NCBI GenBank assembly: GCA_900537125.1
Contig: UNRJ01000008.1
Location: 186,001-250,000, forward strand
Direction: 5' to 3'
From: Rhodobacteraceae bacterium Alg238-R152
GTDB lineage: Bacteria > Pseudomonadota > Alphaproteobacteria > Rhodobacterales > Rhodobacteraceae
DNA length: 64,000 nucleotides
The notes under the pieces are model-generated. The model worked only from the letters and a program-made list of their open reading frames with translations. It made no database searches and was not told the origin of the DNA. The stretch's first letter is position 1; each line of letters begins with the position of its first letter. Positions 12,401 to 61,430 of this stretch are shown piece after piece. A program made the position numbers and the translations under genes.

Positions 12401-13349
12401 CAGCTGCCTGCAGTTCCTCAGGCCATTTTTCCTGTGCCTTGGCCAGTGTCTCTTTGATCTGCTCCACGGTGTCGATGATGTTGTAGCCTTTGCCTTTCAC
12501 CACCTGCAGCGCAACCGTGTTTTCACCATCAAACCGCGCGGTGCCCGCACGGTCTTCAAAGGTGAAGTTGATCTCGGCAAGATCGCCCAGCGTCACAATC
12601 CGCTCGCCGTTGGTTTTGACAGGCAGCTCATAAATGTCGCTGACATCGTTAAACGACGAAGGAATTTTGACCGAGAAAGTACCTTGATTGGTTTCCACCT
12701 CACCAGCAGCAATCAGCTGGTTGTTGTTTTGCACAACACTGATCAACTCAGGCGCGGTGACGTTGTAGGATTCCAACCGCAGCGGGTCGATCACCACCTC
12801 AACCATTTCATCACGGTTGCCCGCGATCGGTGCTTCGAGCACCGCGTCAATGGCCTCAAAGTCGTCCTGAAGATCTTTGGCCAAACGCGCCATAGTGCGT
12901 TCGGGTACATCACCGGACAGGTTGACAATCACAATTGGAAATTCAGAGAAGTTGATTTCCGAGATAGTGTATTGGTCCGCACCTTCCGGGAAATTGGCTT
13001 GCGCCGTGTTCATGGCGTCGCGCACGTCCGCGATGGTCGCGCTTTTGTCCCAGCCAAAATCAAATTCCAAAAGCAGAGAGGCGTGGTTCTCTGATGCGAT
13101 GCCGGTCATCTTGTCGAGGCCATCGAGATCGACGGCCTCGGTTTCCATTGGCTTCACCAGCAGGCTTTCCGCATCTTCGGCGGAAATCCCCGGATAGCTG
13201 ATGGAGACGTAGAGGATCGGAATGTCGATGTCCGGCTCACCTTCTTTTGGCAAGCTCGCGTAAGAGAAGGCGCCAATCACCAGGGAAATTACGATGAACG
13301 CCAAGATCATTCGGGCGCGTTCCGCAGCCCAGGTGATGGCTCCGGTCAT
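9465..13349 (-). CDS. RND-family efflux transporter, inner-membrane pump
   Basis: A 1294-residue proton-driven efflux pump of the HAE1/AcrB-like superfamily. The N-terminus (MTGAITWAAERARMILA, then PDIDIPILYVSISYPG), the DxGxxVD-like segment in TM4 (GMLVDGAIVVVEYAD) and a second set of helices near the C-terminus (GIVALAGIVVNNNIVLID) are clear. It is about 250 residues longer than a typical member: an extra hydrophobic stretch of about 100 residues sits between the two halves (from about ALKSRTPWVLRAIL to TRKRRAV), and there is a polar C-terminal tail of about 85 residues. Its start overlaps the stop of the adaptor gene by ATGA, so the two are co-translated. Substrate unknown. Confidence 0.93.
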   Translation of the reverse strand: MTGAITWAAERARMILAFIVISLVIGAFSYASLPKEGEPDIDIPILYVSISYPGISAEDAESLLVKPMETEAVDLDGLDKMTGIASENHASLLLEFDFGWDKSATIADVRDAMNTAQANFPEGADQYTISEINFSEFPIVIVNLSGDVPERTMARLAKDLQDDFEAIDAVLEAPIAGNRDEMVEVVIDPLRLESYNVTAPELISVVQNNNQLIAAGEVETNQGTFSVKIPSSFNDVSDIYELPVKTNGERIVTLGDLAEINFTFEDRAGTARFDGENTVALQVVKGKGYNIIDTVEQIKETLAKAQEKWPEELQAAVHVGTSNDQSRTVGSMVSQLEGSVLTAIALVMIVVLASLGSRAAMLVGFAIPASFLLCFAFLALMGVTISNMVMFGLILAVGMLVDGAIVVVEYADKRIKEGVGPMHAYVEAAQRMFWPIVSSTATTLCAFLPMLFWPGVPGEFMGMLPVTMIFVLSASLLVALIYLPVVGGISGRLSRVFDHASQALKSRTPWVLRAILVPFPLYGMFVGVMQMLNPTYVMGDGASGMGPVIVGPVIFVLSAFAASVTLSAAEITRKRRAVKSGFRHNGFGYLMRFIVGNPVMPLVSIAAVVFTVISVLSYFGENNNGVEFFVATEPEQATAYVRARGNLSLTEKDEMVRAAEKVIMAHPAVVNVFSFAGKGGLDTGGPGGGNSPPDTVGQVQFEIIPWEDRPTAREKWFFDLLEKDVSAPEFGGNRVLSELNAELAKLPGFFVETSPIEQGPGSGKPIHLRIRGDGWDELNAAANAARETFEATPGLTLVEDTLPLPGIDWQIDVDVAKAGRYGADVATVGAMVQLVTRGILLDTMRVASSDEEIEIRLRLPDQDRVLSTLDTLKVRTNDGLVPLSNFVTRFPVPKRASISRVGQERFYDVKADVEPGLVKIETGEGDDLKMLAILKSLPAGASTNETVITAASGDAFTVFELAEAETVNQVQAALDDGARRVPVTATERIEILTKWLETSPFGTSINWEWTGDQEEQAESGAFLMSAFSAALGLMFVILLAQFNSFYNSVLVLLAVVLSTAGVLVGMLVMDQTFSIIMTGTGIVALAGIVVNNNIVLIDTYQEYSQYMPRIDAIVRTAQSRIRPVLLTTITTMAGLAPMMFGLSLDFINGGYSINSPTSLWWKQLATAVVFGLGIATVLTLVFTPSMLAARVWASTYFNWMMRLLARLSFGRTSRAGQDWALRRSARKVKHPVLMWDETLDIVSSGKGANASSQGTSRKGIAKVDPNDLAPEVEAPRSGKAANDDPDPGGIQAAE

Positions 13350-14590
13350 TGGTCAAGCTCCCGATAGGTCGGGGCAACATGCACCCCTTCAATGACAAAC
13401 TCATGCCCGACCACAATCACGTCTGCTTTCTCTGGCAATCCGCCAACCCAGATCCCGTCCGTGCCATCCCGTAAAAGCGTCACAGCATTGAAAGCAACGA
13501 TGTCGCCAGCTTCAACAATGCGCACGCCCAAGACACCGTCGTCGTTCAAGGTCAAAGAGGACTGCGGCAGGAAGTGCGCTGCTGCGCCGTCCGAGGAGAT
13601 CAAGATTTCTGCAGTTTGACCGTCGCGGATCGACATGTCTTCGTTGGGCACCGTGACTTCCACACGGAACGTACGAGTCTGCGGGTCGGCTGACCGCGAC
13701 ACAAAAGTCACTTGTCCGGTTACTTCTTGACCCGTTGTCAGGCGTGCACCAGCCAAAAAGCCTTCGCTGACGCGGTTGATGTCGGTTTCGGGCACAAAAC
13801 CCACAACCCGAATTGGATCGAGACGCAAAACGGTGCCGCACAGGCTGCCTGGCTGCATCAAGCTTCCGAGTTCGGCAGTCTTGCTTTCCAGCAAACCGTC
13901 AAATGGTGCAACCATGCTCAGGCGCTCTACTTCGCGCTCAGCAGCTGCCACCAGGGCCTGCGCTGATTCGATACCGGCTTGTGTGCTTTCCAACCCTGAT
14001 GTGGCAGACTGGATCGACGCCTCAGCGGCGCGCACACTTGCTGCGGTGCTGGCAACCCGTGTTGAGGAGGCAAAGCCACCTTCTGACAGCTTGCGGGCCG
14101 CATTGTCGTTAATTCTGGCTTCTTCCAGCCGGGCTTCCGCCTCGGCCACCACGGCTTGAGCGCTTGGAACGCGGGCTTGGGCCTCTAACAAGCGTGCCTT
14201 GGCTTCTGCCAAAACGGCGCTGCTCGTGCCGACGTCGAGGCGGCAGAGTTCTTGGCCTGCTGTCACACTTGCTCCGCGTCTCAGCGGCTCAGAGATCACC
14301 AAACCACTGGTTTCCGCGCGAACCTCAACCTCGCGGTCTGCTTCAGTTTCGCCACGCAACACAACGGCGCTATCGATGGTGCGCGCCTCGCTGCGAACGG
14401 CAACGACGCGAATGAGCTGCGCCACCTCTTGTTCAAGCGCGACACTGTCTTTGTCAGCTTCAACAACCTCTTCAGTAGGTTCTGCGCTTGCGCTCCCACT
14501 GGCAAAAGCAAGCAAGCGATCACGCTCAACCACAATGAAATACAATAATGCCGACACGATAAGTGCGGTCAGAACCGGTATAAGCCGCAT
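13346..14590 (-). CDS. RND efflux periplasmic adaptor (membrane fusion protein)
   Basis: A 414-residue HlyD/AcrA-type adaptor that links the RND pump to an outer-membrane channel. It has an N-terminal membrane helix (IPVLTALIVSALLYFIVV), a first half of the lipoyl domain (AETSGLVISEPLRRGASVTAGQELCRLD), a long Ala/Glu-rich coiled-coil hairpin (about residues 120-215), the second lipoyl half (APFDGLLESKTAELG) and beta-barrel segments (RTFRVEVTVPNEDMSIRDGQ). It is the first gene of the operon with the pump; no outer-membrane factor is encoded nearby. The 226 bases up to the divergent yfgM-like gene must hold both promoters. Confidence 0.93.
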   Translation of the reverse strand: MRLIPVLTALIVSALLYFIVVERDRLLAFASGSASAEPTEEVVEADKDSVALEQEVAQLIRVVAVRSEARTIDSAVVLRGETEADREVEVRAETSGLVISEPLRRGASVTAGQELCRLDVGTSSAVLAEAKARLLEAQARVPSAQAVVAEAEARLEEARINDNAARKLSEGGFASSTRVASTAASVRAAEASIQSATSGLESTQAGIESAQALVAAAEREVERLSMVAPFDGLLESKTAELGSLMQPGSLCGTVLRLDPIRVVGFVPETDINRVSEGFLAGARLTTGQEVTGQVTFVSRSADPQTRTFRVEVTVPNEDMSIRDGQTAEILISSDGAAAHFLPQSSLTLNDDGVLGVRIVEAGDIVAFNAVTLLRDGTDGIWVGGLPEKADVIVVGHEFVIEGVHVAPTYRELDQ

Positions 14591-41311: not shown

Positions 41312-41397
41312 GCCCAAGTGGCGGAATGGTAGACGCAGGGGATTCAAAATCCCCCGCCTTCACGGGCGTGAGAGTTCGAGTCTCTCCTTGGGCACCA
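41312..41397 (+). tRNA. tRNA-Leu (anticodon CAA)
   Basis: A complete cloverleaf: acceptor GCCCAAG (41312-41318) pairs with CTTGGGC (41387-41393); anticodon stem 41338-41342 with 41350-41354 and a loop TTCAAAA giving anticodon CAA; a long class II variable arm (CGCC...GGCG); T arm GAGAG-TTCGAGT-CTCTC; discriminator A and an encoded CCA (41395-41397). It decodes UUG. The intact 3' end is followed directly by the integrase gene, so this is the likely integration site of the neighbouring element. Confidence 0.97.
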
Positions 41398-41539: not shown

Positions 41540-42502
41540 ATGGCTACGTTCAGAAAGCAAAATTCAGGGTATCGAGCTGAGGTCGCTCGTAAGGGTCGGC
41601 GCAAGTCGAAGGTCTTGCCAACGTTGCAGCAGGCAAAAGACTGGGCTGCTCGCGCGGAGTTTGAAATTCTCCATAGTGATAAGGTCGCGGCCCAGACCCC
41701 GTTCGGAGATGTCCTAGATCGTTATGCCAGGGAAGTGAGCCCTGCCAAAAAAGGGCATCGTTGGGAGGTCGTGAGGCTGGAGAAGATCCAACGAGACAAA
41801 ATCGCATGTATCAGCTTGGGGGAACTGAACCCCAAAGACCTGGCTGATTATCGGGATCGTCGGCTTCGTGAGGTGACAGGGGCATCTGTTCGGCGCGAAA
41901 TGGTTCTGCTGTCTTCTGTGTTCAATGTGGCACGAAAAGAGTGGGGCCTGATGTCCGAAAATCCACTTCAGGATGTTCGCAAGCCGCCCCAGTCTGCGGC
42001 CAGAGACAGGCTGCCTTCAGCTGAAGAAATTGAGCGCATGCTGTACGTCGCGTCCGGCGACTTGACTAAAGCAACGGCGAGAGCGTTTCACGCCTTTCTG
42101 TTTGCCGGGGAGACGGCCATGCGGGCTGGGGAAATCGTTGGATTGACCTGGGATCTGGTTGACCTGGATCGCAAGGTCGCCACATTGCCTGTGACCAAGA
42201 ACGGAACGTCCAGAGAGGTGCCACTGTCGTCTGCGGCGATCGAGCTACTGCGGGATTTGCCGAAACAGGATCCGGTCTTTGGGCTTACGTCGCGCCAGCT
42301 TGATGTTCTATTCCGCAAATCCCGCGACACCGCGGGTGTGGACGATCTAACTTTCCATGACTCACGGCACTACGCAATTACGCGCCTGGCCAAAAAGCTT
42401 GATGTGATGGATCTGGCTCGGATGGTCGGCCACAGGAACCTGTCCCAGCTTCTGACCTACTACAATGAAAGTGCGGAGAATTTGGCCCAGCTTTTGGACT
42501 GA
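41540..42502 (+). CDS. int: Tyrosine-recombinase integrase
   Basis: A 320-residue phage-type site-specific recombinase. The N-terminal arm-binding part (about 1-50) is followed by a SAM-like core-binding domain and the catalytic domain with Arg195 (TAMRAGEI), Lys220 (VTKNG), His273 and Arg276 (HDSRH), His298 (GHRN) and the nucleophile Tyr307 or Tyr308 (TYYNES). All catalytic residues are intact, so it should be active. It lies 142 bases from the tRNA-Leu 3' end and reads into the element. Its likely excisionase partner is 5.4 kb away, with cargo between. A GC-poor inverted repeat (CTTGCCAA at 42507 with 42551-42558) follows the stop. Confidence 0.95.
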   Translation: MATFRKQNSGYRAEVARKGRRKSKVLPTLQQAKDWAARAEFEILHSDKVAAQTPFGDVLDRYAREVSPAKKGHRWEVVRLEKIQRDKIACISLGELNPKDLADYRDRRLREVTGASVRREMVLLSSVFNVARKEWGLMSENPLQDVRKPPQSAARDRLPSAEEIERMLYVASGDLTKATARAFHAFLFAGETAMRAGEIVGLTWDLVDLDRKVATLPVTKNGTSREVPLSSAAIELLRDLPKQDPVFGLTSRQLDVLFRKSRDTAGVDDLTFHDSRHYAITRLAKKLDVMDLARMVGHRNLSQLLTYYNESAENLAQLLD

Positions 42503-49645: not shown

Positions 49646-50518
49646 TTATTCGCGCGACTTTTCGATACGCTCTTCGTCCAACTGGTGGCGACGATGCTCG
49701 TAGGTTTCGATCACGGCTTCCCAGAGGTCGAAGTGCTTGGATTCAAGCTCGCCAATGATTGCCGCGCGGCGGTCCCATTCGTTGTCGATCTGGCGACTGC
49801 CTTTCATGCGGCCGAATTGAGCGCGCAACGCATCAGCAATTGCTTCCGCCTTTTCGCGTGGTGTGGCGTTCTCTGGCAGGTTCTCGGTGACTGTGTTTGC
49901 CCAAGAGTATTGCTTGTTGGACGGGCGTTGTTGCTGGCCGTTGCCATCGTTGTCGTCATCGGTGGCGATGTTGAACAAATTGCAGATCAGGTAACGGCGC
50001 GCATAGGTCATAGTGCTGCCCATGGCCTGAATGCCGGTCTTGTTTGTTTTCCCTTGAGAGCCTGCGGCATCCAGCGGGAAGGCCGCTTGCCCTTCTTCGG
50101 TGTGCCCGTTCTCGTGCATCACGGACCAATTGACCAAGAGATTGTCTTTGTCGTCTTTGCCGCCCGGATTGAAGCTTACAGAAAAGCCGTGGCTGTAGGC
50201 GATTGGCATTGCCTGCTCTTCAATGTCGGAGAGGTCGGCGTAGGTGCTGCGCGTGTGGGTGTTCTGCTTGCTCTTGGCCACAGTTGGCATGTGGGCCTGC
50301 GCCTTTGCCATTGCGCTGTTGTAGGCGCGTTTTGCCTCGCGGTGTTCTTCCTCACGTTGGTTGGTGTCGTGCCGGTCCTTCAGGTCCATCATACGCTCTA
50401 GGCGTTCGATCGGGACGTTTGGGTCCATCGCGACCCGCTCAATCATGCTCACCATAGGATCGGCTGGTAGCATCGGTGCTGCGCCTTGATCCTCAACCTG
50501 TGCAATTTGGTTGTTCAT
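49646..50518 (-). CDS. ERF family single-strand annealing protein
   Basis: A 290-residue recombination protein of the ERF superfamily (P22 Erf-like), which anneals complementary single strands in phage recombination. Family features: FNSAMAKAQ-type segment (here YNSAMAKAQAHMPTVAKSKQN), RSTYADLSDIEEQAMPIAYSHGFSVSF, and the conserved QAMGSTMTYARRYLICNLFNI. The start at the ATG 50518 has GAGGAGC upstream; the frame extends to 50581 without support. It is the core of the leftward early operon; 173 bases without a gene follow it. Confidence 0.9.
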   Translation of the reverse strand: MNNQIAQVEDQGAAPMLPADPMVSMIERVAMDPNVPIERLERMMDLKDRHDTNQREEEHREAKRAYNSAMAKAQAHMPTVAKSKQNTHTRSTYADLSDIEEQAMPIAYSHGFSVSFNPGGKDDKDNLLVNWSVMHENGHTEEGQAAFPLDAAGSQGKTNKTGIQAMGSTMTYARRYLICNLFNIATDDDNDGNGQQQRPSNKQYSWANTVTENLPENATPREKAEAIADALRAQFGRMKGSRQIDNEWDRRAAIIGELESKHFDLWEAVIETYEHRRHQLDEERIEKSRE

Positions 50519-50552
50519 AATTTGCTCCTCTAAAATCGGAGCGGGCAGGGGC

Positions 50553-50828
50553 TTATGCAGCCTCTTGCTCGCTTTCCTCAATGCGGTTGATTGCGCCGAA
50601 ACCGATCATCTTTTCTGTCCACTCGCGGGAGCGGTAGATCTTGGTCACGCCATCGTCGATGCTGATGCCATCTACGGAGATGAAGCCGCTGGTGTTGGTG
50701 GAGAGGTAGGCAATGACTTCTTCGCCGTTTTCGTTTTCCGGATCGCATTCTTCGACCCAGATATCGGTCACATCGACCTCGAGTTCGGCGTTAGTCCAAG
50801 ATGGTGTTTTGATCGATTGATACTGCAT
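50553..50828 (-). CDS. First gene of the leftward early operon, unknown function
   Basis: A 91-residue acidic protein (ELEVDVTDIWVEECDPENENGEEVIAYLSTN, then DGISIDDGVTKIYRSREW), probably beta-rich. No family recognised. The ATG at 50828 is supported by GGAGGGG 10 bases upstream; the frame continues to 50894 but crosses the operator region. It is the first gene after the operators at 50888-50936, so it should be the first translated from the repressor-controlled left promoter. Confidence 0.65.
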   Translation of the reverse strand: MQYQSIKTPSWTNAELEVDVTDIWVEECDPENENGEEVIAYLSTNTSGFISVDGISIDDGVTKIYRSREWTEKMIGFGAINRIEESEQEAA

Positions 50829-52515: not shown

Positions 52516-52703
52516 TGTCGGAGCCGCTGCGCCCCAAACTCACTTCAGAAGACGGGTATGCCGTAATACGCATCCCGTTGGACGAAGTGCATGGGTTACG
52601 CGTAGCGCTCAATGAATGCCAGTGTGTGGCACCCAAATCCTCCAGAACAAAATCGATCAGAAAGCGGCTTGCGATAGCCCTTGGAAGACTGGAGGCGAGG
52701 TAA
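52515..52703 (+). CDS. Small protein in replication operon
   Basis: A 62-residue protein with a beta-strand-like N-terminal half (DGYAVIRIPLDEVHGLRVAL) and a basic C-terminus (SSRTKSIRKRLAIALGRLEAR). No family recognised. It overlaps the previous stop by one base (TAATG), which argues that it is translated with the upstream gene. Confidence 0.6.
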   Translation: MSEPLRPKLTSEDGYAVIRIPLDEVHGLRVALNECQCVAPKSSRTKSIRKRLAIALGRLEAR

Positions 52704-52755
52704 TGGAAATCTTCTGTGTCGTCATCGGACTGAGAACATCACGACGGGTGGCCTT

Positions 52756-53730
52756 ATGAGCAACCTCGTCACCTCACTTCTTCGAAGCAAAAACCTCGGC
52801 GTCGGGCTGACTGCCAAGTCAGTTATCCTGTTGATGGGCGATATCGCCAGTGACGAAGGGCAGGGGATATGGGCTGCGAAGGGTACGATGGCCAGAGAGT
52901 TGGAGACGACTGAGCGGACTGTTCAGCGACAAATCTCTGCACTCGAAAACGCTGGCTTCATCCAAGAAGTCGGCAAGCGGAAACACCGCAATGGCTTCAC
53001 TGTCGAGTACCGAATTTGCCTGAGTGTTGTGTCCAGCTGTCCAAATGCAGGGGGCGTGTTGGTGAAGGGGCGGCATTCGACCCCCGACAGTGTGTCACCT
53101 CAAGACCCGACAGACTGTCACCCCATGGCTCACACCCCCGACAGTGTGTCGCCCCAAGATACGACAGGCTGTCACCTCAAGGCCCAGACCCCCGACGGGC
53201 TGTCACCCCAAGATACGACGGTGTGTCACCCCAAGGCGGTAACCCCCGACAGAGTGTCACCGGTACCCCCGACAGACTGTCACCCCACCCCCGACAGTGT
53301 GTCACCCCAAGATACGACAGTGTGTCACCCAAACCAAAGTAAACCATCCAAGGAACTTAATAAGAATAGTGAAGGGCAACAGATCAGCGACGCGCTAACG
53401 CGGTTCGCTGGCCTCGATGCGGTGTCTAGTTTCGTCGCCTATCGCCGGAAGATCAAAAAACCACTCACGGTCACGGCGGCCAAGCGACTGGCCGAGCAGC
53501 TACGCCAAATCGAGGCCAGAGGTGGCGACGCCTCCGACGCCCTAGGACTCGCCGAAGAACGCGGCTGGCAGGCCGTGAAAGCCGATTGGTACTTCAACGA
53601 AAAAGGGCAGGGCAATGACCAACGCTCCCGCAGTAATTTCAAAGCTCCCAACACCGACCCCACGTCTGACGCAATCGCTATTGCCGCACGAAGTCGAAGA
53701 CCATCGGGCCCGGATCGCGTTCGAGGTTGA
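52756..53730 (+). CDS. Lambda O-like replication initiator containing an origin with iterons
   Basis: A 324-residue protein. The N-terminal part (residues about 1-95) is a winged-helix domain like that of phage initiators (LGLTAKSVILLMGD-like start, then AAKGTMARELETTERTVQRQISALENAGFIQEV). Residues about 109-192 are 18-residue repeats (TPDSVSPQDTTVCHP) that arise from ten DNA iterons. The C-terminal part (KKPLTVTAAKRLAEQLRQIE, then GWQAVKADWYF) resembles the tail of phage replication proteins that bind the helicase loader. I chose the ATG at 52756. It overlaps the next gene by 116 bases, which is large and suggests the next start may lie further in. Confidence 0.8.
   Translation: MSNLVTSLLRSKNLGVGLTAKSVILLMGDIASDEGQGIWAAKGTMARELETTERTVQRQISALENAGFIQEVGKRKHRNGFTVEYRICLSVVSSCPNAGGVLVKGRHSTPDSVSPQDPTDCHPMAHTPDSVSPQDTTGCHLKAQTPDGLSPQDTTVCHPKAVTPDRVSPVPPTDCHPTPDSVSPQDTTVCHPNQSKPSKELNKNSEGQQISDALTRFAGLDAVSSFVAYRRKIKKPLTVTAAKRLAEQLRQIEARGGDASDALGLAEERGWQAVKADWYFNEKGQGNDQRSRSNFKAPNTDPTSDAIAIAARSRRPSGPDRVRG
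53085..53329 (+). repeat. Ten iterons forming a putative replication origin inside the initiator gene
   Basis: Ten copies of the 15-base core CGACAGTGTGTCACC (variable middle) start at 53085, 53108, 53139, 53162, 53193, 53216, 53247, 53270, 53292 and 53315. Spacings alternate 23 and 31, ending 23, 22, 23. Each core has a GACA-N3-TGTC dyad. Odd copies are read in one frame (PDSVSP) and even copies in another (TTVCHP), so the DNA word itself is conserved. An AT-rich segment (53331-53380) follows, as in the lambda origin. Confidence 0.85.
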
Positions 53731-54264: not shown

Positions 54265-54880
54265 CCGCCGCAACAAATCCAAGAAGCAGCCGCTGGGTTT
54301 GCCTGAATTGGCCGCAACACCACGCCCGAAAAAGCGAGGCAAGGCGCGTATGGCGGAGATTAGCCAGGAACGCGATCCGCAGCGTACCGTGCTGTCCGCA
54401 CGAGCGCGCATGATGGGGCAGGAAGACACCGTACAGAACCGCCAGAACATGCGCAGCCAAGCGCTAGGAGAGGCCGCAGGGCGCGCCATTTACCTGGCGT
54501 GTGACGAGGAGGAATCTGCCAAGCTTTGGAGCATCTACGCGGCGTTTACGGCGACCGAGGCGCGCTATGCCAAAGTTGTTCTCTGTAAGAGCCTTCACGC
54601 GAAGGGCACTAGGATCGAAATGATGCCGGAACGGTTTGAAACGCGCGCGGACGACAAGCCGGGTTTGCGGAGCGAAGACGAGCGCCATCGCGACGCCGTG
54701 AACGACTGGATGCGCTGGAGAGGGTACATCGGGCAGCTGCGGAGCGATCAGCAGTTCGCGCTTTTTGAAGTTGTGAGGGGGCGGGTTGAGCCGGGTGTTG
54801 ATGCTGAGCTTACGCGGGTAGGGGAGCGATTTGTGGGCGCGTTGCGGTCGCTTTCGGTGATTGTTGATGCAAGGGGGTAA
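54251..54880 (+). CDS. Phage protein of unknown function whose 3' end is duplicated downstream
   Basis: A 209-residue protein. The N-terminus is very basic (GKGDRRNKSKKQP, then RPKKRGKARM), the middle helical (SKLWSIY-like AKLWSIYAAFTATEARYAKVVL), and the C-terminus (RHRDAVNDWMRWRGYIGQLRSDQQFALFEVV) well defined. No family is recognised; the position at the end of the early rightward operon suggests a late-transition or DNA-metabolism role. The last 249 bases recur, diverged but without gaps, at 57243-57491. Cargo genes lie between the two copies. Confidence 0.7.
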   Translation: MGKGDRRNKSKKQPLGLPELAATPRPKKRGKARMAEISQERDPQRTVLSARARMMGQEDTVQNRQNMRSQALGEAAGRAIYLACDEEESAKLWSIYAAFTATEARYAKVVLCKSLHAKGTRIEMMPERFETRADDKPGLRSEDERHRDAVNDWMRWRGYIGQLRSDQQFALFEVVRGRVEPGVDAELTRVGERFVGALRSLSVIVDARG

Positions 54881-55047: not shown

Positions 55048-55335
55048 ATGCCGCGTCGAAAAGCTCGAAAGGGTCAATTGTCACAAGACAGGCTTCTTGA
55101 TGAGGCACGACCGCTGTTCATCACGGTTTTGATGTCAGGTGCACCAATAGATGACGAAATTGGCATCATCTTTGACTCAGCAGGTCGGCTATGCTTGGAT
55201 TTGGGGGTGCCGACAGAACAGAGTGGCGCGGAATTTTTATTATCTCTGCCAATTAGTTCAAGGATAGATTTATGTCGAAGAAAGCCGGAACCGTTCGCCT
55301 GCCCGAAGTCAATCAGAAGAGACGCGACCTTTTGA
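55048..55335 (+). CDS. Doubtful small open frame before the dimethylformamidase-like gene
   Basis: A 95-residue frame. The first 70 residues are plausible (GQLSQDRLLDEARPLFITVLMSGAPIDDEIGIIFDSAGRLC), but the end overlaps the next gene by 64 bases and looks like its shadow (LCRRKPEPFACPKS). No ribosome binding site of note and no family. It may be a remnant carried in with the cargo gene. Confidence 0.3.
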   Translation: MPRRKARKGQLSQDRLLDEARPLFITVLMSGAPIDDEIGIIFDSAGRLCLDLGVPTEQSGAEFLLSLPISSRIDLCRRKPEPFACPKSIRRDATF

Positions 55336-57038
55336 AAGGGTCCGCCGCTGCCGTGGGTGCGGCGGCTGCCGCCGTTGGGGGAGCTTCCATGCTGGGGGGA
55401 AGCGGTGCCAACGCCAGTAGCCTCCCGTCAGGTGACGCTGCTCGATATGTGCCGCCCGGGCAGTGGTGGCAGCATTTCGGTGTGGAGTTCTGGGAGTTTC
55501 CCAGTGACGACCCCGAAGCGGTCGAGGTTTGGGCATATACCGACAAGCTGTCGTACGCACCTGGTGAAACCGTGTCATTCCACGTCAACTCGAGCGCTCC
55601 TACTTTCGATGTAACGATCTATCGGGATGGCTTAAAGTTAGAGGAAGTCCACGCCACTAACGGGATCGCCGGACGGCGGTCTCCCACGCCGGCAGATTGC
55701 TTCTCAGTCGGTTGTGGTTGGCCCGCGTTGCACACTTGGAGTTTGCCGAGCGATCTACGGTCAGGTTTTTACCTTGCTGTGTTCAGTTTTATGCGTGGCG
55801 AGGAACGCATCGAACACGAAGCAGGGTTTATTTTGCGTGCGGCCAAACCGACAGCGCCGATCATATTCATGTGCGCGACGCAGACATGGATGGCCTACAA
55901 CGATTGGGCCGGCGGCAACTACTACGGCAAGCCGGGTGGCGGATCGAGCACGGGCACGGAACTGGGGTTCATCCCAAAGCTTCACATCCACCGGCCATGG
56001 GCTCGCGGTTTCTTGCGTCTGCCAAAAGGTACCCCGCGAGCCAATGACGTCGCTTATCGGACTCGTGAGGCCGGCGCGCATGCGCATTACCTCAATTTCG
56101 AGTTCTCTATGGCAAACGGCTATTCTAAGTGGGCGGCCGGCGCGGGCTGGGCGCATTATGACCGCCACATGGCGATCTGGTGCGAGAAAAACGGGTACGA
56201 GCTCGACTATATCGCCCAACAGGACCTTGCGGCAAACCCCGACCTTCTTAAGGACTACAAGTGCCTGCTCACCACGGGCCATGACGAGTACTACACGTGG
56301 GAACAACGCGACTCGATTGATACGTTCATGGAGAACGGCGGCGGGTTCGCGCGGTTCGGGGGCAACAGCAACTGGCAGAGTCGCCTTGAGAGTGATGGAC
56401 AGGTTCTGGTCACCTACAAGAGCAATGCAGAAACTGATGATCCCTTGAAAGACGAGCGGATCCGGACTGGCAGTTGGGTGCACCCCAAAACGAACCGAAA
56501 TTCGGCAACGACATTCGGAGTGGATTCAATGTTTGGCCATCTGGTCGGCATACCAGCCGCAGCACCGCGAACACCGGGATTCATTACCCTGAGACCGGAT
56601 CATTGGATGCTCAAGGATACCGATCTGTATTATGGCGATGCGTTTGGCTCGATTGCCGCAGGGTATGAATGTGACGGGTTGCCGGTCACGTTCCGCGATG
56701 GGCTTGCCTATTCGACGGGTGAGTTTGGAAGCCCGACCAATGTGGAAATCGTGGCATTCCTCTTCGCCCGCGCCGGCGAAGAGAAGCGAGATCATACCGC
56801 TCGGGTATTTGCCGATGAGGCATACCTGCTATCAACGCCCCAGGGCTTTTATGGTCGGCGCGACGTGTCAGAAGCGGAAGTCGCGAAGCACACGCGTGGA
56901 AATGGTCTGGTCCTTTGGATGCCAAAAGGCAAAGGAGGCGTCGCGACTGGACCGACCTGCGACTGGTGTTATGCGCTGGGGCGAGATGAATTCGTCGACA
57001 AAGTTACACAGAACGTCCTCGATCGTTTCACGTCCTGA
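55272..57038 (+). CDS. Tat-exported N,N-dimethylformamidase large-subunit-like protein
   Basis: A 588-residue protein. The N-terminus carries a Tat signal (KRRDLLKGSAAAVGAAAAAVGG). The rest matches the family of the beta (large) subunit of N,N-dimethylformamidase, an iron amidohydrolase: QWWQHFGVEFWEFPSDDPEAVEVWAYTDKLSYAPGETV, YNDWAGGNYYG, and the iron-site region TTGHDEYYTWEQRDSIDTFMENGGGFARFGGN with a Tyr pair. The known enzyme is cytoplasmic and has a small alpha subunit; here there is a Tat signal and no alpha gene, so the substrate is likely different. It sits between the two copies of a phage gene end. Confidence 0.8.
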   Translation: MSKKAGTVRLPEVNQKRRDLLKGSAAAVGAAAAAVGGASMLGGSGANASSLPSGDAARYVPPGQWWQHFGVEFWEFPSDDPEAVEVWAYTDKLSYAPGETVSFHVNSSAPTFDVTIYRDGLKLEEVHATNGIAGRRSPTPADCFSVGCGWPALHTWSLPSDLRSGFYLAVFSFMRGEERIEHEAGFILRAAKPTAPIIFMCATQTWMAYNDWAGGNYYGKPGGGSSTGTELGFIPKLHIHRPWARGFLRLPKGTPRANDVAYRTREAGAHAHYLNFEFSMANGYSKWAAGAGWAHYDRHMAIWCEKNGYELDYIAQQDLAANPDLLKDYKCLLTTGHDEYYTWEQRDSIDTFMENGGGFARFGGNSNWQSRLESDGQVLVTYKSNAETDDPLKDERIRTGSWVHPKTNRNSATTFGVDSMFGHLVGIPAAAPRTPGFITLRPDHWMLKDTDLYYGDAFGSIAAGYECDGLPVTFRDGLAYSTGEFGSPTNVEIVAFLFARAGEEKRDHTARVFADEAYLLSTPQGFYGRRDVSEAEVAKHTRGNGLVLWMPKGKGGVATGPTCDWCYALGRDEFVDKVTQNVLDRFTS

Positions 57039-57233
57039 TTGCCGAGCTGACAATAGGGGAAATCAGGGCCTCCTCGGGCCTGGTTTCCAACTTAACTCAA
57101 GCCTTCTCTCCGATCATTGAGAACTCCCCTTGCTGGTGTCCGCTTTAGCCGCGAACGTACGCTTGAGGTAAACCGCTCCGACTTTGCAAAGGTCGCAACC
57201 TGCGCTTGCCAGCCATTAATCAACTCCGCAGAG

Positions 57234-57491
57234 ATGGAGGAGCGGTTTGAAACGCGGGAGGACGACAAGCCGGATTTGCGGAGTGAAGACGAGCGCCACC
57301 GCGACGCCGTGAACGACTGGATGCGATGGCGCGGGTACATCGGGCAACTGCGGAGTGATCAGCAGTTTGCGTTGTTTGAGGTTGTGAGAGGGCGGGTTGA
57401 GCCGGTTGTGGATGCGAGCCTTTCGCGGGCGGGAGAGCGATTTGTGGGCGCGTTGAGAATGCTTGCTGTTGTTGTTGGTGAAAGGGGGTGA
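57234..57491 (+). pseudogene. Truncated second copy of the phage gene at 54251-54880
   Basis: Encodes a C-terminal fragment of 85 residues (from MEERFETREDDKPD) that aligns without gaps with residues about 126-209 of the upstream gene (RHRDAVNDWMRWRGYIGQLRSDQQFALFEVV in both). The N-terminal half is missing; upstream sequence is unrelated. The frame is intact to its stop, and the shared GCTCTCAGCCCG follows, so it may still be translated as a short protein, but it has no good ribosome binding site. Confidence 0.75.
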
Positions 57492-57504: not shown

Positions 57505-57665
57505 CCCGGATCAGACATGGTCCCGGGGTATCGGAAGCGGAACGCGCGGATTTGCAGTAGAACGCTGACATTTCTTCGAAATTCAACGTTTCCACCTGAT
57601 CTTTCTCAAGTATAGGTTGAAAGTCAGTCGTTGCGCCGCAATGATCGCCCTCGACGCGCTAGAAT

Positions 57666-60239
57666 ATGTTTGGATTCAAAATGCCCGAAAATACAATCAA
57701 ATCGGTAGGCAACGAAGTCGGTCAAGTCAGTGTACAAATTGGGCCACAGTTTCTGAACCTATTCAGTAAGCAGCTGTATTCATCACCCAACAAAGCTTTT
57801 GAGGAGCTGATCAGTAACTCCTGGGACGCGGATGCCGAAAACGTCTATGTTAGTGTCCCGGAGGACCTTGATAGTTCCGACGCAAAAATTTGGATTCTTG
57901 ATGATGGTATCTCTATGGATGTGTCCGGGTTCAAGGATCTTTGGTCGGTCGCCACATCCAAAAAACGGCAGCCGGAATATAAGGCCAAACGTAAGCCAAT
58001 TGGAAAATTTGGCGTCGGTAAGCTAGCAACTTATCTTCTGGCAAATGAACTCACCTATATTTGCAAGGCTTCTGACGGAAAAATACGCGCAGTTACTTTA
58101 GACTACCGAGATATTGATGCCGAAAAAAACCGTGAGAAACTGCACATTGACGCCTTGCCTTTGCCTGTGCGGGAAGTGTCGATGGCTGAAGTAAAAAACC
58201 TGCTGTCCGACACATCAGAGGGCGCTAGATTGCATGATCTGTTGTCCAACGACGTACCTGACATTGTTGCGGCAGATTATATCGATGAATTTGGTGGCCC
58301 CAAGGAAAAGCCGTCAACACGAAATCAAACTTGGACTGTTGCAATTCTTTCCGAGTTAAAGACGGAGGGGACCCAACTGAAGCTAGGCTGGGTCAAACAT
58401 CTGCTAAAGACATCCCTGCCTCTTGGCGATTCCATTCGTATTTCAGTAAACAATGAAACCATTGTGCCAAGGAAGGTTGAAACCAAAGTTATTCGACAAT
58501 GGACGCTCGGAGAGGATTATGAATTCGAGAGTGTTGTCGTTGGTGACGAATTGATCCAAGTTTCCCACCATAAGACGCCTCATCCGCATATCAAAATTGA
58601 TGGCATAGGGGAATTATCGGGAACTGTGAGGCTTTTTGCAGACAAAATTTCTGGGGGCCGCAGTGATGAAAAAGAAAGCTCAAATGGCTTTATCGTAAAT
58701 GTTCTAGGACGAAATATTCTACCAGAGGATCCCTATTTTGGGCTTGAGAACCTAAGCCACTCAACTTGGGCTTCTTTCAGATGTGCCGTCAGAGCTGATT
58801 ACCTTGATGGGAAAATTTCTGTGGATCGAGAAGGGGTAGCAGCAAGCCGCGAACTACTCGCAACTCGTGCTATCCTTATGCGTTTCTTTAATGACGCCAG
58901 AAGTGCGGCAAACAAAGCAGCACAGGAAAGCTGGCCAACCGAAGGAGACGCCGTAGCCGGCGACTTTGGTGCGCGAATGCCATTTCAACCTCTTGAACGC
59001 CTCGTTGAGGAATACCTTGTCGACATAAATGATACTCCAGACTTCATTGATGCGCGAAATGTCGAAGACTCCGTTTCGTTTCGCAACAAGTGGCGTGAAG
59101 AAATCATTGGAAAGCCTGAAAACCTGGTCCGAAAAATGCCGATGGTCGAGCTGGAGCCTTCCGAAAAATTGGTCAGGTATGATGTTTCTAAACAAGAGAT
59201 AGTCATAAACAAGAGCCACCCGTTTAGCGTTGAATACTCTGACAATCCCGAGCAGCTTCGAATGCTGCAAGACACTGCATTGGTCGAATTTCTCACTGAC
59301 ACTTACATGCTGGACAGCGGTTTGCCGGAAGACCGACTGACAGAAATAAGCGATTATAGAGACAGAATGCTGCGTCTTGTTGCGACTCTTCGGCGACGAA
59401 CAGCGCCGCAAATTGTCAAGCTTCTGAGCGAAACGACAGATCATGTTAAGGGGTTTGAAGTCATTGTTGGCGACGCATTGGACTACCTTGGTTTTGTAGT
59501 CGAGCGCATGGGACAGTCTGGTAAGCCAGAGGGGGTCGCATCCGCCATCATCTCAAGAGAAAAAGATGAGCAAAAACAAGATTATAAACTGACCTACGAC
59601 GCAAAATCTTCCATTCATAAAAGGGCGTCGGCTGGCAACGTTGGTGTCTCGGGCCTGGCGCGGCACAAGAAAGACTTCGACGCCGACTATGCCTTGGTCG
59701 TTGCTCAGGGCTTCGCCAAGGGTGCGCTTCAGAAGGAATGCAAGGCAAACAGAGTTACTCCAATGACGGCTGAAGCACTCGGTCGATTGGTTTCGGTCAC
59801 GCTGCAGCAAGGGCCACTCGATCTGCGAAAATTGAAACCTCTCTTTGATCTTCACTCGCCTGAAGACACGACCAAGTGGGTGGAAGACTTTGAGAAGAAT
59901 CTTAGTCATGACCAAACGCTTACAATCAGTGTGATCATGCAGGCCTTGGATCAGATAGTATCCAAGAACCCCAAACTGCCAGATGTTATCCATGCCACAC
60001 AGATTGCGGCGAGTTGCCGTGAAATTCTTAACAGCGAAAGTTTCCCGCAAAAGCAAAACATTATAGCGGCTATGCGTGGACTTCAGTTGATGGTTCCAAA
60101 CGTGATTTCAGCGAATATGAGCGGCGATGTTTATCTGCTTACGACACCCAAGAAAATCGGAGAAGCTCTGCAACTGCAACTGGACGCGATACCCGAAAAG
60201 TATCAAAAGGGACAGGTCAACTTGCCCCTTGGAAAATAG
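57666..60239 (+). CDS. GHKL ATPase fused to PD-(D/E)XK nuclease domain (candidate restriction component)
   Basis: An 857-residue protein. The N-terminal GHKL (MutL/Hsp90/MORC-like) ATPase has the N box EELISNSWDADA (Glu46/47, Asn51, Asp54), the G1 box LDDGISM (Asp79-Gly81) and the G2 loop GKFGVGKLAT (113-121). A transducer-like region follows to about residue 420, then a helical linker. Near residues 596-650 lies a restriction-endonuclease-like motif: GFEV (Glu598), KPEG (Glu622 in the usual PD position) and TYDAKSS (Asp645-Lys647). MORC-like GHKL proteins with nuclease domains have been predicted in restriction-modification loci. The stop is directly followed by the methyltransferase ATG. 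No Walker-type helicase is present. Confidence 0.8.
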   Translation: MFGFKMPENTIKSVGNEVGQVSVQIGPQFLNLFSKQLYSSPNKAFEELISNSWDADAENVYVSVPEDLDSSDAKIWILDDGISMDVSGFKDLWSVATSKKRQPEYKAKRKPIGKFGVGKLATYLLANELTYICKASDGKIRAVTLDYRDIDAEKNREKLHIDALPLPVREVSMAEVKNLLSDTSEGARLHDLLSNDVPDIVAADYIDEFGGPKEKPSTRNQTWTVAILSELKTEGTQLKLGWVKHLLKTSLPLGDSIRISVNNETIVPRKVETKVIRQWTLGEDYEFESVVVGDELIQVSHHKTPHPHIKIDGIGELSGTVRLFADKISGGRSDEKESSNGFIVNVLGRNILPEDPYFGLENLSHSTWASFRCAVRADYLDGKISVDREGVAASRELLATRAILMRFFNDARSAANKAAQESWPTEGDAVAGDFGARMPFQPLERLVEEYLVDINDTPDFIDARNVEDSVSFRNKWREEIIGKPENLVRKMPMVELEPSEKLVRYDVSKQEIVINKSHPFSVEYSDNPEQLRMLQDTALVEFLTDTYMLDSGLPEDRLTEISDYRDRMLRLVATLRRRTAPQIVKLLSETTDHVKGFEVIVGDALDYLGFVVERMGQSGKPEGVASAIISREKDEQKQDYKLTYDAKSSIHKRASAGNVGVSGLARHKKDFDADYALVVAQGFAKGALQKECKANRVTPMTAEALGRLVSVTLQQGPLDLRKLKPLFDLHSPEDTTKWVEDFEKNLSHDQTLTISVIMQALDQIVSKNPKLPDVIHATQIAASCREILNSESFPQKQNIIAAMRGLQLMVPNVISANMSGDVYLLTTPKKIGEALQLQLDAIPEKYQKGQVNLPLGK

Positions 60240-61430
60240 ATGCTTCACTCACGATCATATCTGCACCCCTTTCCCGCTCGAATGGCTCCAAGCATAGCGC
60301 TTGAGGAGATTGAACGCTTTGACGCAGGCAGTGTCGTGGTTGACCCAATGGTCGGATCGGGCACCGTTGCCTTGACCGCTGTAGCCGCTGGGCATCAGTT
60401 CTACGGTTTTGATCTTGATCCCTTGGCAGCTTTGATTGCCTTGGTTTCAACAAGTCGATTAAATCACGACCGAGTGCGCCGCCTGTCAAAAACAATCGTG
60501 CAACTGGCGAGGTCGAACTCAGCGTCGCCTGTCGATCTGCCCTGGGTGAATGCGGAGGACGAAACCCACAAGTTCATGGAGTTTTGGTTCGCAGACAAGC
60601 AGCGGCAAGCGCTGTCCAGCATTGCGATAGAACTGGACCGTCTCAATCAAGATGAGCCGAGTAAGGAAGTCGACGCTCTCAAAGTTGCATTAAGTAGAAT
60701 TATTGTGACAAAGGAGAGCAAGGCGTCGCTTGCCCGCGATACATCTCATAGCAGACCGCATAGAGTAGCAACGACTAGCGACTACGATGTCTTCAAGGGG
60801 TTTGAGCAATCAGTTAACCAAATACTGCAGCGGCATTCAAAATTGAGAATTATCGGAGATGCTACAATTGAAAGAGGCGACGCTAGAAAGATTGGATCAA
60901 TCGGCGACGGTTTTTGTGATGCAATTGTCTCCTCCCCCCCGTACCTCAATGCTATCGATTACTTACGTGGCCACAAGTTGTCTCTGGTTTGGCTAGGCTT
61001 CACTATTCCTCAAATACGCCAATTGCGATCAATGAGTGTAGGCGCTGAACGAGCAACGACAGAGTCAGCGGAGCTGGCTTCCAGAGTTCTTGATGGTTTT
61101 GGCGACATATCCAATCTGGCGCCTCGCCAGAAAGCCATGATCACAAGATACGCAATTGATCTCCACAGAATATCAAAGGAGGCAGAACGTATTTTGAGAC
61201 CCAACGGAACCGCTCTATACGTCATGGGAAACTCTTGTCTAAAGAGTGTGTATGTGGACAATGCATCCGCACTTACCAATGCCGCTGAACTGGCAGGTTT
61301 GACACTTTTAGGGCGCTCAGAGCGCGAAATTCCGCTGGGTAGCAGATACCTACCTACACCGAAAGACAACAACGCGCTCTCCTCAAGAATGCGAAAAGAG
61401 ATTGTTTTGAAATTCCAAAAGGTAGCATAA
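60240..61430 (+). CDS. DNA methyltransferase (N4-cytosine/N6-adenine type), partner of the GHKL nuclease
   Basis: A 396-residue methyltransferase. AdoMet motif I is DPMVGSGT (residues 35-42) after the lead-in HPFPARMAPSIA, with an acidic residue at the end of the next strand (GFDLDP). The catalytic motif IV is SPPY (232-235), in SSPPYLNAIDYLRGHKLSLVWLG, which is typical of amino-methylating enzymes of the beta/gamma orders. Between them lies a region of about 170 residues that may hold target recognition. It starts with no gap after the ATPase-nuclease gene. It should protect host DNA from that nuclease; sequence specificity is unknown. Confidence 0.85.
   Translation: MLHSRSYLHPFPARMAPSIALEEIERFDAGSVVVDPMVGSGTVALTAVAAGHQFYGFDLDPLAALIALVSTSRLNHDRVRRLSKTIVQLARSNSASPVDLPWVNAEDETHKFMEFWFADKQRQALSSIAIELDRLNQDEPSKEVDALKVALSRIIVTKESKASLARDTSHSRPHRVATTSDYDVFKGFEQSVNQILQRHSKLRIIGDATIERGDARKIGSIGDGFCDAIVSSPPYLNAIDYLRGHKLSLVWLGFTIPQIRQLRSMSVGAERATTESAELASRVLDGFGDISNLAPRQKAMITRYAIDLHRISKEAERILRPNGTALYVMGNSCLKSVYVDNASALTNAAELAGLTLLGRSEREIPLGSRYLPTPKDNNALSSRMRKEIVLKFQKVA

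Follow-up and report, generated by a model that had tools for sequence, protein, structure and literature searches.

A predicted Type II-like restriction-modification cassette pairing a GHKL ATPase-nuclease fusion with an amino-methyltransferase

Two abutting genes in the window (the whole 64,000-nucleotide stretch of Rhodobacteraceae bacterium Alg238-R152 DNA analysed here) encode a GHKL ATPase fused to a putative PD-(D/E)XK nuclease and an SPPY amino-methyltransferase. We propose, with a probability of about 0.7, that they would act as a Type II-like restriction-modification system, in which ATP-driven dimerisation would control the nuclease. The proposal builds on domain content, co-conservation, coupling in one cassette and constraint on the domains, all of which are evident in the sequences compared.

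A mobile two-gene cassette in a prophage

The original prediction had placed two ORFs end to end on one strand, and they do abut with zero gap. These genes and their setting are:

57666..60239, + strand: GHKL ATPase-nuclease fusion, 857 aa (ORF)
60240..61430, + strand: SPPY amino-methyltransferase (N4-cytosine or N6-adenine), 396 aa (ORF, Pfam, PADLOC)
57588..61426, + strand: mobile two-gene cassette (blastn, E<=1e-5, whole window as query, L002 and L036 as targets)
41312..41397, + strand: tRNA-Leu(caa), adjacent to the integrase of the prophage
41540..42502, + strand: tyrosine-type integrase of the cassette-carrying prophage (PHROG integrase, E 4.4e-55)
49646..50581, - strand: Erf-like ssDNA-annealing protein, prophage early region (PHROG, E 5.1e-50)
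52681..53730, + strand: O-like replication initiator, prophage early region (PHROG, E 3.5e-24)

An alternative start of the fusion lies at 57681 (MPEN), where the ORF of the homologue on a Sneathiella contig (L002) begins; it fits this homologue better than 57666 and is possibly the true start. Homology between the window and the Sneathiella contig is confined to 57588-61426, at 85% DNA identity (blastn, E<=1e-5). Because it spans the cassette only, the fusion and the methylase, judged by this alignment, travel as one mobile unit. In the same single pairwise comparison dN/dS was 0.047 for the nuclease gene and 0.09 for the methyltransferase gene, and it stayed below 0.1 in each of five parts of the 857-aa protein, a pattern of purifying selection on both genes and of constraint on every domain.

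The nuclease and methyltransferase genes are separate and coupled, as in Type II restriction-modification, and the pair is matched by PADLOC models for a Type II REase and an MTase, with the PADLOC and NCBIfam matches to the 857-aa protein covering its ATPase only. No helicase lies within the two-gene unit, as had been proposed, and the restriction-modification-like logic ascribed to the pair is supported.

The prophage that carries the cassette adjoins tRNA-Leu, and the cassette itself falls between its early and its head genes, a location that goes beyond the original prediction. A search for an attachment site in the form of a duplicated tRNA-Leu end found no exact repeat of at least 14 nt on either strand of the window and its right flank.

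Domain composition of the two proteins

The 857-aa protein divides into five parts:

57723..58205, + strand: GHKL ATPase domain, residues 20-180 (HATPase_c_3, conserved boxes)
58206..58985, + strand: S5/middle domain, residues 181-440 (hhalign to BbrUII-type proteins)
58986..59435, + strand: linker region, residues 441-590 (dN/dS comparison with L002)
59436..59810, + strand: PD-(D/E)XK nuclease domain, residues 591-715 (conserved residues, C-terminal model, Foldseek)
59811..60200, + strand: helical, winged-helix-like region, residues 716-845 (predicted secondary structure, models)

The GHKL ATPase is intact, as first described. Pfam HATPase_c_3 matches residues 39-164 (E 6e-20), and the N box (EELISNSWDA, residues 46-55, 57801-57830), G1 box (ILDDGIS, residues 77-83, 57894-57914) and G2 box (IGKFGVGKLA, residues 112-121, 57999-58028) are joined to an S5-type middle domain, the profile alignment running through residue 421. 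E47, N51, D79, G81, G113, G116 and G118 are invariant in all seven family members, as is Arg388 in SVDREGV (58818-58838), which may correspond to the catalytic Arg of Hsp90. The linker has the lowest dN/dS of the five parts (0.011 for residues 441-580, window against L002). The label "MORC/MutL-like" proved too loose. The MORC S5-domain motif is printed as GhXhhpXXRhl (PMC2292703), and the window sequence GFIVNVLGRNI keeps its Gly and Arg and differs, by eye, at several polar and hydrophobic positions; for MutL, TIGR00585 scores 11 bits against the required 180. Also bearing on this label, the full-length model matches Hsp90 chains best and SMCHD1 next, the model being of low confidence (mean pLDDT 57.5; of the 44 blocks of ten residues that make up residues 1-440, 29 fall below 50).

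The nuclease motif that had been predicted, with Glu as the first acid, is present: E598, E622 (GKPEGVA, 59520-59540), D645-x-K647 (YDAKSS, 59595-59612) and H667. E598 and K647 are invariant in the seven members, position 645 is Asp in six and Glu in one, and position 622 is Glu in four, whose methylases are of one type, and Asp in the remaining three. Modelled separately (pLDDT 81.6, pTM 0.81), the C-terminal region runs helix-strand-strand-strand-helix-strand, and all seven PDB chains that Foldseek matched at E < 1e-3 are restriction enzymes: HindIII (three chains, best 2.7e-5), FokI (three, 1.7e-4) and, below both, AspBHI (one). These matches are loose, with TM-scores of 0.32-0.45, 13-16% identity in the aligned stretches and, for HindIII over the two-domain model, an rmsd of up to 19.5. 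Residues and model together place a predicted PD-(D/E)XK fold in residues 591-715, a stretch that takes in residues 596-700, where the original prediction had looked for it. On its own the window nuclease is recognised by no Pfam model; one of five family members scanned matches Mrr_cat directly (E 0.002), and two plasmid proteins that match the nuclease region (tblastn E 2e-4 and 5e-3, whole plasmid collection) themselves exceed the Mrr_cat cut-off. A PDB sequence search with the C-terminal profile returned six matches up to E 1, the best being an ESAT-6-like protein (E 0.008) that we judged unrelated. The winged-helix-like tail, a feature outside the original prediction, is from its predicted secondary structure a possible DNA-recognition part.

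The second protein is an amino-methyltransferase with SPPY, as anticipated. It matches Pfam N6_N4_Mtase and PADLOC MTase_II, with motif I (DPMVGSGT) at residues 35-42, from 60342, and SPPY at residues 232-235, from 60933; by motif convention we assume N4-cytosine to be a likelier target than N6-adenine.

A rare family and its relation to known systems

We found seven distinct fusion members (window, L002, L076, L119, L077, L078 and L006). In the search for co-occurring homologues that had been suggested, an amino-methyltransferase directly adjoins the fusion in all except L006, where it lies 2.9 kb away. The adjacent methyltransferases fall into three different types, and therefore no single shared site is implied for the whole family. 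The member in L119 neighbours Type ISP genes, that in L078 a C5-methyltransferase, a FokI-type nuclease and Vsr. Besides the genome of the window, one further member occurred among 385 class genomes, one among 394 family genomes and none among 388 phylum genomes; G365, whose locus agrees with L002, was taken as the same genome and counted once, and a 75-residue match in G528 (two internal stops, E 1.5e-4) was dropped. Among viral contigs, single-sequence scans, run with each of the two proteins, confirmed no relative, a three-sequence profile confirmed relatives, and a five-sequence profile gave 25 loci and no further full-length member; a phage search with the L078 protein returned none. Of the plasmid records, 48 matched the ATPase (one examined, Salarchaeum) and 39 the methylase (five examined). 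No new member emerged from a DNA-level plasmid search with the cassette or from plasmid searches with L077, which found the Salarchaeum ATPase half only, and L006, which found itself only. Three Staphylococcus/Priestia plasmid records match the nuclease part only and were not counted; the search that gave them missed Salarchaeum and so was not exhaustive.

BbrUII-type enzymes cut DNA. Their GHKL and S5 half aligns with that of the window protein (hhalign probability 99.6, E 9.5e-24, residues 21-421; the profile combines five proteins, of which two exceed the cut-off of the curated BbrUII/HgiDII model NF050001 and three fall short of it), and they too have a C-terminal nuclease and a neighbouring methylase. 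The nucleases fail to align (hhalign probability 0.1), which is weak evidence because the profiles are shallow; the family shares the BbrUII-type ATPase half and apparently not the nuclease half. Ten other GHKL proteins were scanned with NF050001, and two passed (L035 and L088, both with HATPase_c_3), whereas the window protein scores 64.3 against a cut-off of 550 bits, over residues 30-159 only, and with its unalignable nuclease is not placed in this group. The partners differ as well: an N6_N4-type amino-methyltransferase in the window, C5-methyltransferases there, M.HgiDII and M.BbrUII being 5mC enzymes (PMC5867850). A C5-methyltransferase lies within 4 kb in 41 of 56 other GHKL loci (near-duplicates included; one C5 query; 58 loci minus L036, a family member, and L054, which lacks an ATPase match in the list used).

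The N-terminal GHKL ATPase and C-terminal PD-(D/E)XK nuclease are also those of VcSduA, Shedu type I-D and paraMORC3. As originally stated, GHKL proteins had been predicted in such loci, paraMORC3 having been described in 2008 (PMC2292703); compared by description, it has the same architecture (GHKL, S5 and a C-terminal restriction-enzyme-fold nuclease), with a RecB-related nuclease, whereas that of the window resembles HindIII, FokI and Mrr. The statement that no mechanism had been characterised for this pairing needs narrowing. The general idea of a GHKL ATPase-nuclease defence is already known from VcSduA and BbrUII/HgiDII, the latter with a curated model, and a phage block by VcSduA needs both ATPase (E27A) and nuclease (K557A) residues, gating being put forward there as a hypothesis (PMC12137116); the combination of the present cutting domain with an amino-methylase looks new. 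HEF_HK architecture includes a second, C-terminal HATPase_c (PMC8011034), whereas the window protein has a single HATPase domain in the Pfam scan. Two loci that are HEF_HK-like by architecture only (Allorhizobium L028 and G766 L046; no HEF_HK at E<=0.1) begin with HATPase_c_3 and encode two methyltransferases, one of them 46% and 48% identical, respectively, to the window enzyme over its length, but at its C-terminus their GHKL protein carries a second HATPase_c in place of a nuclease; a 409-aa neighbour in L028 matches no Pfam family at E<=0.1. HindIII, FokI and AspBHI share the predicted fold of residues 575-857, and we know of no GHKL ATPase fused to any of them.

Proposed mechanism and alternatives

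In the Type II-like system that we propose, the SPPY methyltransferase would place an amino-methyl mark on a host DNA site, and the 857-aa protein would be its cognate nuclease. The winged-helix-like part and the linker may recognise the site, which the HindIII/FokI-like domain would cut when unmethylated, methylation protecting the host and cleavage presumably serving phage defence. Hsp90 and MutL dimerise on ATP; the GHKL-S5 module could do the same and thereby join two nuclease domains or license them. Sensing of unmethylated sites in pairs, or movement along DNA by sliding, as first suggested, is hypothetical. Against this reading stands the motif-II acid, Glu where Asp is usual.

That substitution is the starting point of a very improbable alternative, a phage-borne methylation cassette in which Glu622 inactivates the nuclease and the fusion is structural or regulatory. 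The prophage setting and the three other members on contigs of a viral collection would suit it, but the window shares Glu622 with three relatives (37, 48 and 93% identical to it), the acid at 645 and K647 are kept in all seven members, and nuclease-domain dN/dS is 0.026 (window against L002). Were the nuclease active, it might instead cut foreign methylated DNA in a Type IV-like manner, and the methylase next to it would then act independently, for protection or in competition. Mrr is modification-dependent, as is AspBHI, so that the AspBHI match and the two Mrr_cat-matching plasmid relatives speak for this option; we consider it improbable, since AspBHI ranks below the conventional restriction enzymes HindIII and FokI, and an abutting methyltransferase would mark host DNA for attack unless the specificities differ.

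A Shedu/VcSduA-like effector is also unlikely, if somewhat easier to entertain: the ATPase would sense a phage feature and the nuclease would cut phage DNA without a strict site, with the methylase marking self or adding little. VcSduA has the same domain order and, in the part of the source available, protects without a named methylase (PMC12137116); the ATPase half is common to BbrUII-type proteins, and SduA_C matches, all below cut-off, occur in four of ten GHKL relatives scanned. The window protein, however, has no DUF4263/SduA_C match at E<=1 (Pfam) and is not assigned to Shedu, its nuclease does not align with the BbrUII-type nucleases, for what shallow profiles can tell, and an amino-methyltransferase, though of three types, adjoins the fusion in six of seven members.

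More tentatively than the Type II-like reading itself, we suggest that the family may be a separate restriction-enzyme lineage, in which an Hsp90-type ATP clamp, not a helicase or translocase, would control a HindIII/FokI-like nuclease, closing on DNA and cutting only once two protomers encounter unmethylated sites. In that case the ATPase might be a swappable chassis, combined in nature with no fewer than two dissimilar nuclease modules and with different methylase classes. The wider question is by what means a GHKL ATPase governs a nuclease in bacterial defence. Here is a two-gene system whose ATPase half is common with the BbrUII type, whose nuclease half is apparently different and whose methylase may mark the DNA to be spared. 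With defined DNA, this combination opens the contribution of the ATPase to direct test, and it touches on how clamps of the MORC and Hsp90 types acquired a role on DNA.

The ATPase–nuclease gene and its methylase

The original prediction held that two reading frames, with no gap between them, encode a GHKL ATPase protein and an SPPY amino-methyltransferase, and both are present:

57666–60239, fusion gene, 857 aa, GHKL ATPase by HATPase_c_3 (E 6e-20)
60240–61430, methylase gene, 396 aa, matching the N6_N4_Mtase and Type II MTase models

The fusion stop codon lies directly against the methylase start codon, and in the methylase motif I precedes SPPY. Back-to-back homologues occur in Sneathiella sp. 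HT1-7 (contig locus L002), the nuclease protein being 93% and the methylase 87% identical. Comparison of the whole window with this 14.6-kb locus gave a single blastn match (57588–61426, 85% identity) and, because homology is limited to this interval, the two genes were transferred together without their flanks. In this one pairwise comparison, dN/dS was 0.047 for the nuclease gene, 0.09 for the methylase and 0.011 to 0.089 across five parts of the large protein. Judged from these sequences, both proteins, and every part of the large one, are under purifying selection.

Distribution of the family and its methylase neighbours

A three-sequence profile matched 32 loci on viral contigs. Three of them match across most of the fusion, L076 at 48% and L077 and L078 at 30% identity to the window protein, the matches of the remaining 29 being confined to residues 17–234; L076 also holds a transposase and a terminase. 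Repeating the viral contig search with a five-sequence profile gave no additional full-length member. Among 394 genomes of the bacterial family, the full architecture was found in the own genome and in one other (G966, locus L119, 37% identical). A Salarchaeum japonicum plasmid protein (L006) has identical domain order at lower identity, and the distinct fusion members thus number seven. In the reading frames of the loci collected before L119, a C-terminal-half profile recovered these members and two Staphylococcus/Priestia nuclease-only proteins, and nothing else at E ≤ 0.01. The full architecture was restricted to the own genome among 25 genus genomes (two others match within the ATPase), 398 phylum genomes (22 others match within residues 8–183) and 388 phylum genomes searched with the C-terminal profile; one partial match in the last set, interrupted by stop codons, was dropped. 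Among 385 class genomes, queried with the C-terminal part of one sequence, it was found in the own genome and in G365, counted as one with the Sneathiella locus. The 50,697 phage records held no full-architecture match and two ATPase-only matches.

An amino-methyltransferase gene abuts, overlaps or lies 2 nt from the fusion gene in six of the seven members. One methylase family is common to the window, L002, L076 and L119 (42–87% identical to the window methylase); the L078 methylase, upstream of the fusion, belongs to another SPPY family, and the adjacent methylase of L077 has SPPY first. In L006 the methylase lies 2.9 kb off, with four annotated genes in between. By contrast, other GHKL loci mostly have C5-methyltransferase neighbours: in a BLAST survey of 56 loci fetched by the ATPase domain, near-duplicates included, at least 41 have one within 4 kb and at least two have a methylase similar to those of the fusion family, both counts being lower bounds because only one C5- and four amino-methyltransferases served as queries. 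L078 has a C5-methyltransferase 0.4 kb downstream in addition to its amino-methyltransferase.

Several neighbourhoods deserve separate mention. The L078 cassette is followed by genes for a C5-methylase, a FokI-type nuclease and Vsr (10850–13933), and a Type ISP restriction-modification enzyme directly adjoins that of L119 (43–3927). L028 (4530–7176) and L046 (7791–10700) each encode a two-HATPase GHKL protein and two methylases, one akin to the window's (46–48%) and the other to that of L078 (44–48%); both types also occur singly beside a GHKL-nuclease fusion. Plasmids of Moraxella (L030, 4797–10324) and Bradyrhizobium (L032, 4854–10167) carry similar four-gene sets, a possible defence locus, of an SPPY methylase and three annotated hypotheticals, one of which has, by eye, a P-loop-like N-terminus.

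The nuclease and ATPase halves

A Pfam scan of the window nuclease domain alone gave no recognition, and Mrr_cat was reached by one of five members (E 0.002). The domain is matched by plasmid proteins named restriction endonuclease, which themselves exceed the Mrr_cat cut-off; E is 2e-4 and 5e-3 across the entire plasmid collection, and 2e-10 and 3e-9 when five sequences are compared. When the seven members are aligned, E598 and K647 do not vary, and position 645 is Asp in six and Glu in one. Glu as the first acid, noted in the original prediction, is borne out: position 622 is Glu in four members (window, L002, L076, L119) and Asp in the other three (L077, L078, L006). Since the alignment shows it in three relatives (37, 48 and 93% identical), Glu622 is a retained feature where others have the ordinary Asp.

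Residues 575–857, folded with four relatives, gave a model with pLDDT 81.6 and pTM 0.81. All seven PDB chains matched at E < 1e-3 were restriction enzymes (three HindIII, three FokI, one AspBHI). TM-scores were modest (0.32–0.45 by query length) and HindIII superpositions loose (rmsd 15–20), as expected if two domains sit differently. The original prediction would have failed on a model lacking a nuclease fold at residues 596–700; the C-terminal model has one, and together with the plasmid homologues and conserved residues it supports a predicted nuclease fold in the fusion. Residues 716–845, for which the prediction gives helices, then two short strands and one helix, are possibly winged-helix-like and a candidate DNA-recognising part.

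Residues 21–421 align with a profile built from five proteins of the BbrUII/HgiDII type, of which two pass the family cut-off (prob 99.6, E 9.5e-24), whereas the nuclease halves gave no profile alignment (prob 0.1, both profiles being shallow). For the whole protein the predicted model is of low quality (mean pLDDT 57.5); its best 45 structural matches are Hsp90-family chains, with SMCHD1 next. Arg388 (SVDREGV), which resembles the Hsp90 catalytic arginine, is invariant among the seven members.

Prophage setting, known relatives and proposed function

The cassette lies in a prophage of a 4.27-Mb genome:

41312–41397, tRNA-Leu, directly preceding the integrase
41540–42502, integrase

Erf-like, repressor-like and O-like replication protein genes follow, and the contig beyond the window carries terminase, portal and head protease genes, which places the cassette between early and head genes. 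The right end of the prophage is beyond the contig end; no attachment repeat (exact, 14 nt or more) was found in the window and its right flank. Five 54-nt repeats within the O-like gene (53080–53340) are perhaps origin iterons. An ORF immediately before the cassette (55272–57038), with N,N-dimethylformamidase-type likeness by eye, is bracketed by a 257-nt direct repeat whose two copies (54622–54878 and 57233–57489) are 85% identical. Just right of the window, between cassette and terminase, lie ZorB-like (E 1.5e-7), ZorA-like and HNH genes (L115, 1869–5496, minus strand; HNH by a Type IV-like model, E 2e-17). These genes may form an additional, Zorya-like defence locus of the same prophage; the ZorA-like match is weak (E 5e-4) and ranks second to a DruC match (E 1.3e-4).

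Iyer and colleagues placed MORC and paraMORC GHKL proteins within restriction-modification neighbourhoods, paraMORC3 being fused to a restriction-fold nuclease (Iyer et al., 2008, PMC2292703). VcSduA, like paraMORC3 and the window protein a GHKL-nuclease fusion, blocks phage in dependence on both catalytic residues (PMC12137116), and HEF_HK proteins, most with HATPase_c_3, lie near Type II methylases (Bellieny-Rabelo et al., PMC8011034). BbrUII/HgiDII is a restriction-enzyme family in NCBI naming; its methylases are 5mC enzymes, and M.HgiDII recognises GTCGAC (PMC5867850). The general idea of a GHKL-nuclease fusion is already known, and the cassette appears to be a variant with a HindIII/FokI-like nuclease and an amino-methylase, a combination undescribed among the matches listed in the GHKL/HATPase-restriction literature, mostly at title or abstract level.

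On the parts, conservation and linkage of the pair, which are directly observed, the restriction-modification function originally proposed is likely, and the most probable identity of the cassette is a Type II-like system whose nuclease is under ATP control. ATP-driven dimerisation would gate the nuclease, the fusion would recognise a DNA site and cleave, and methylation by its partner would protect from cleavage. The main interest of the cassette is as a clean system in which to study the control of a nuclease by a GHKL clamp.
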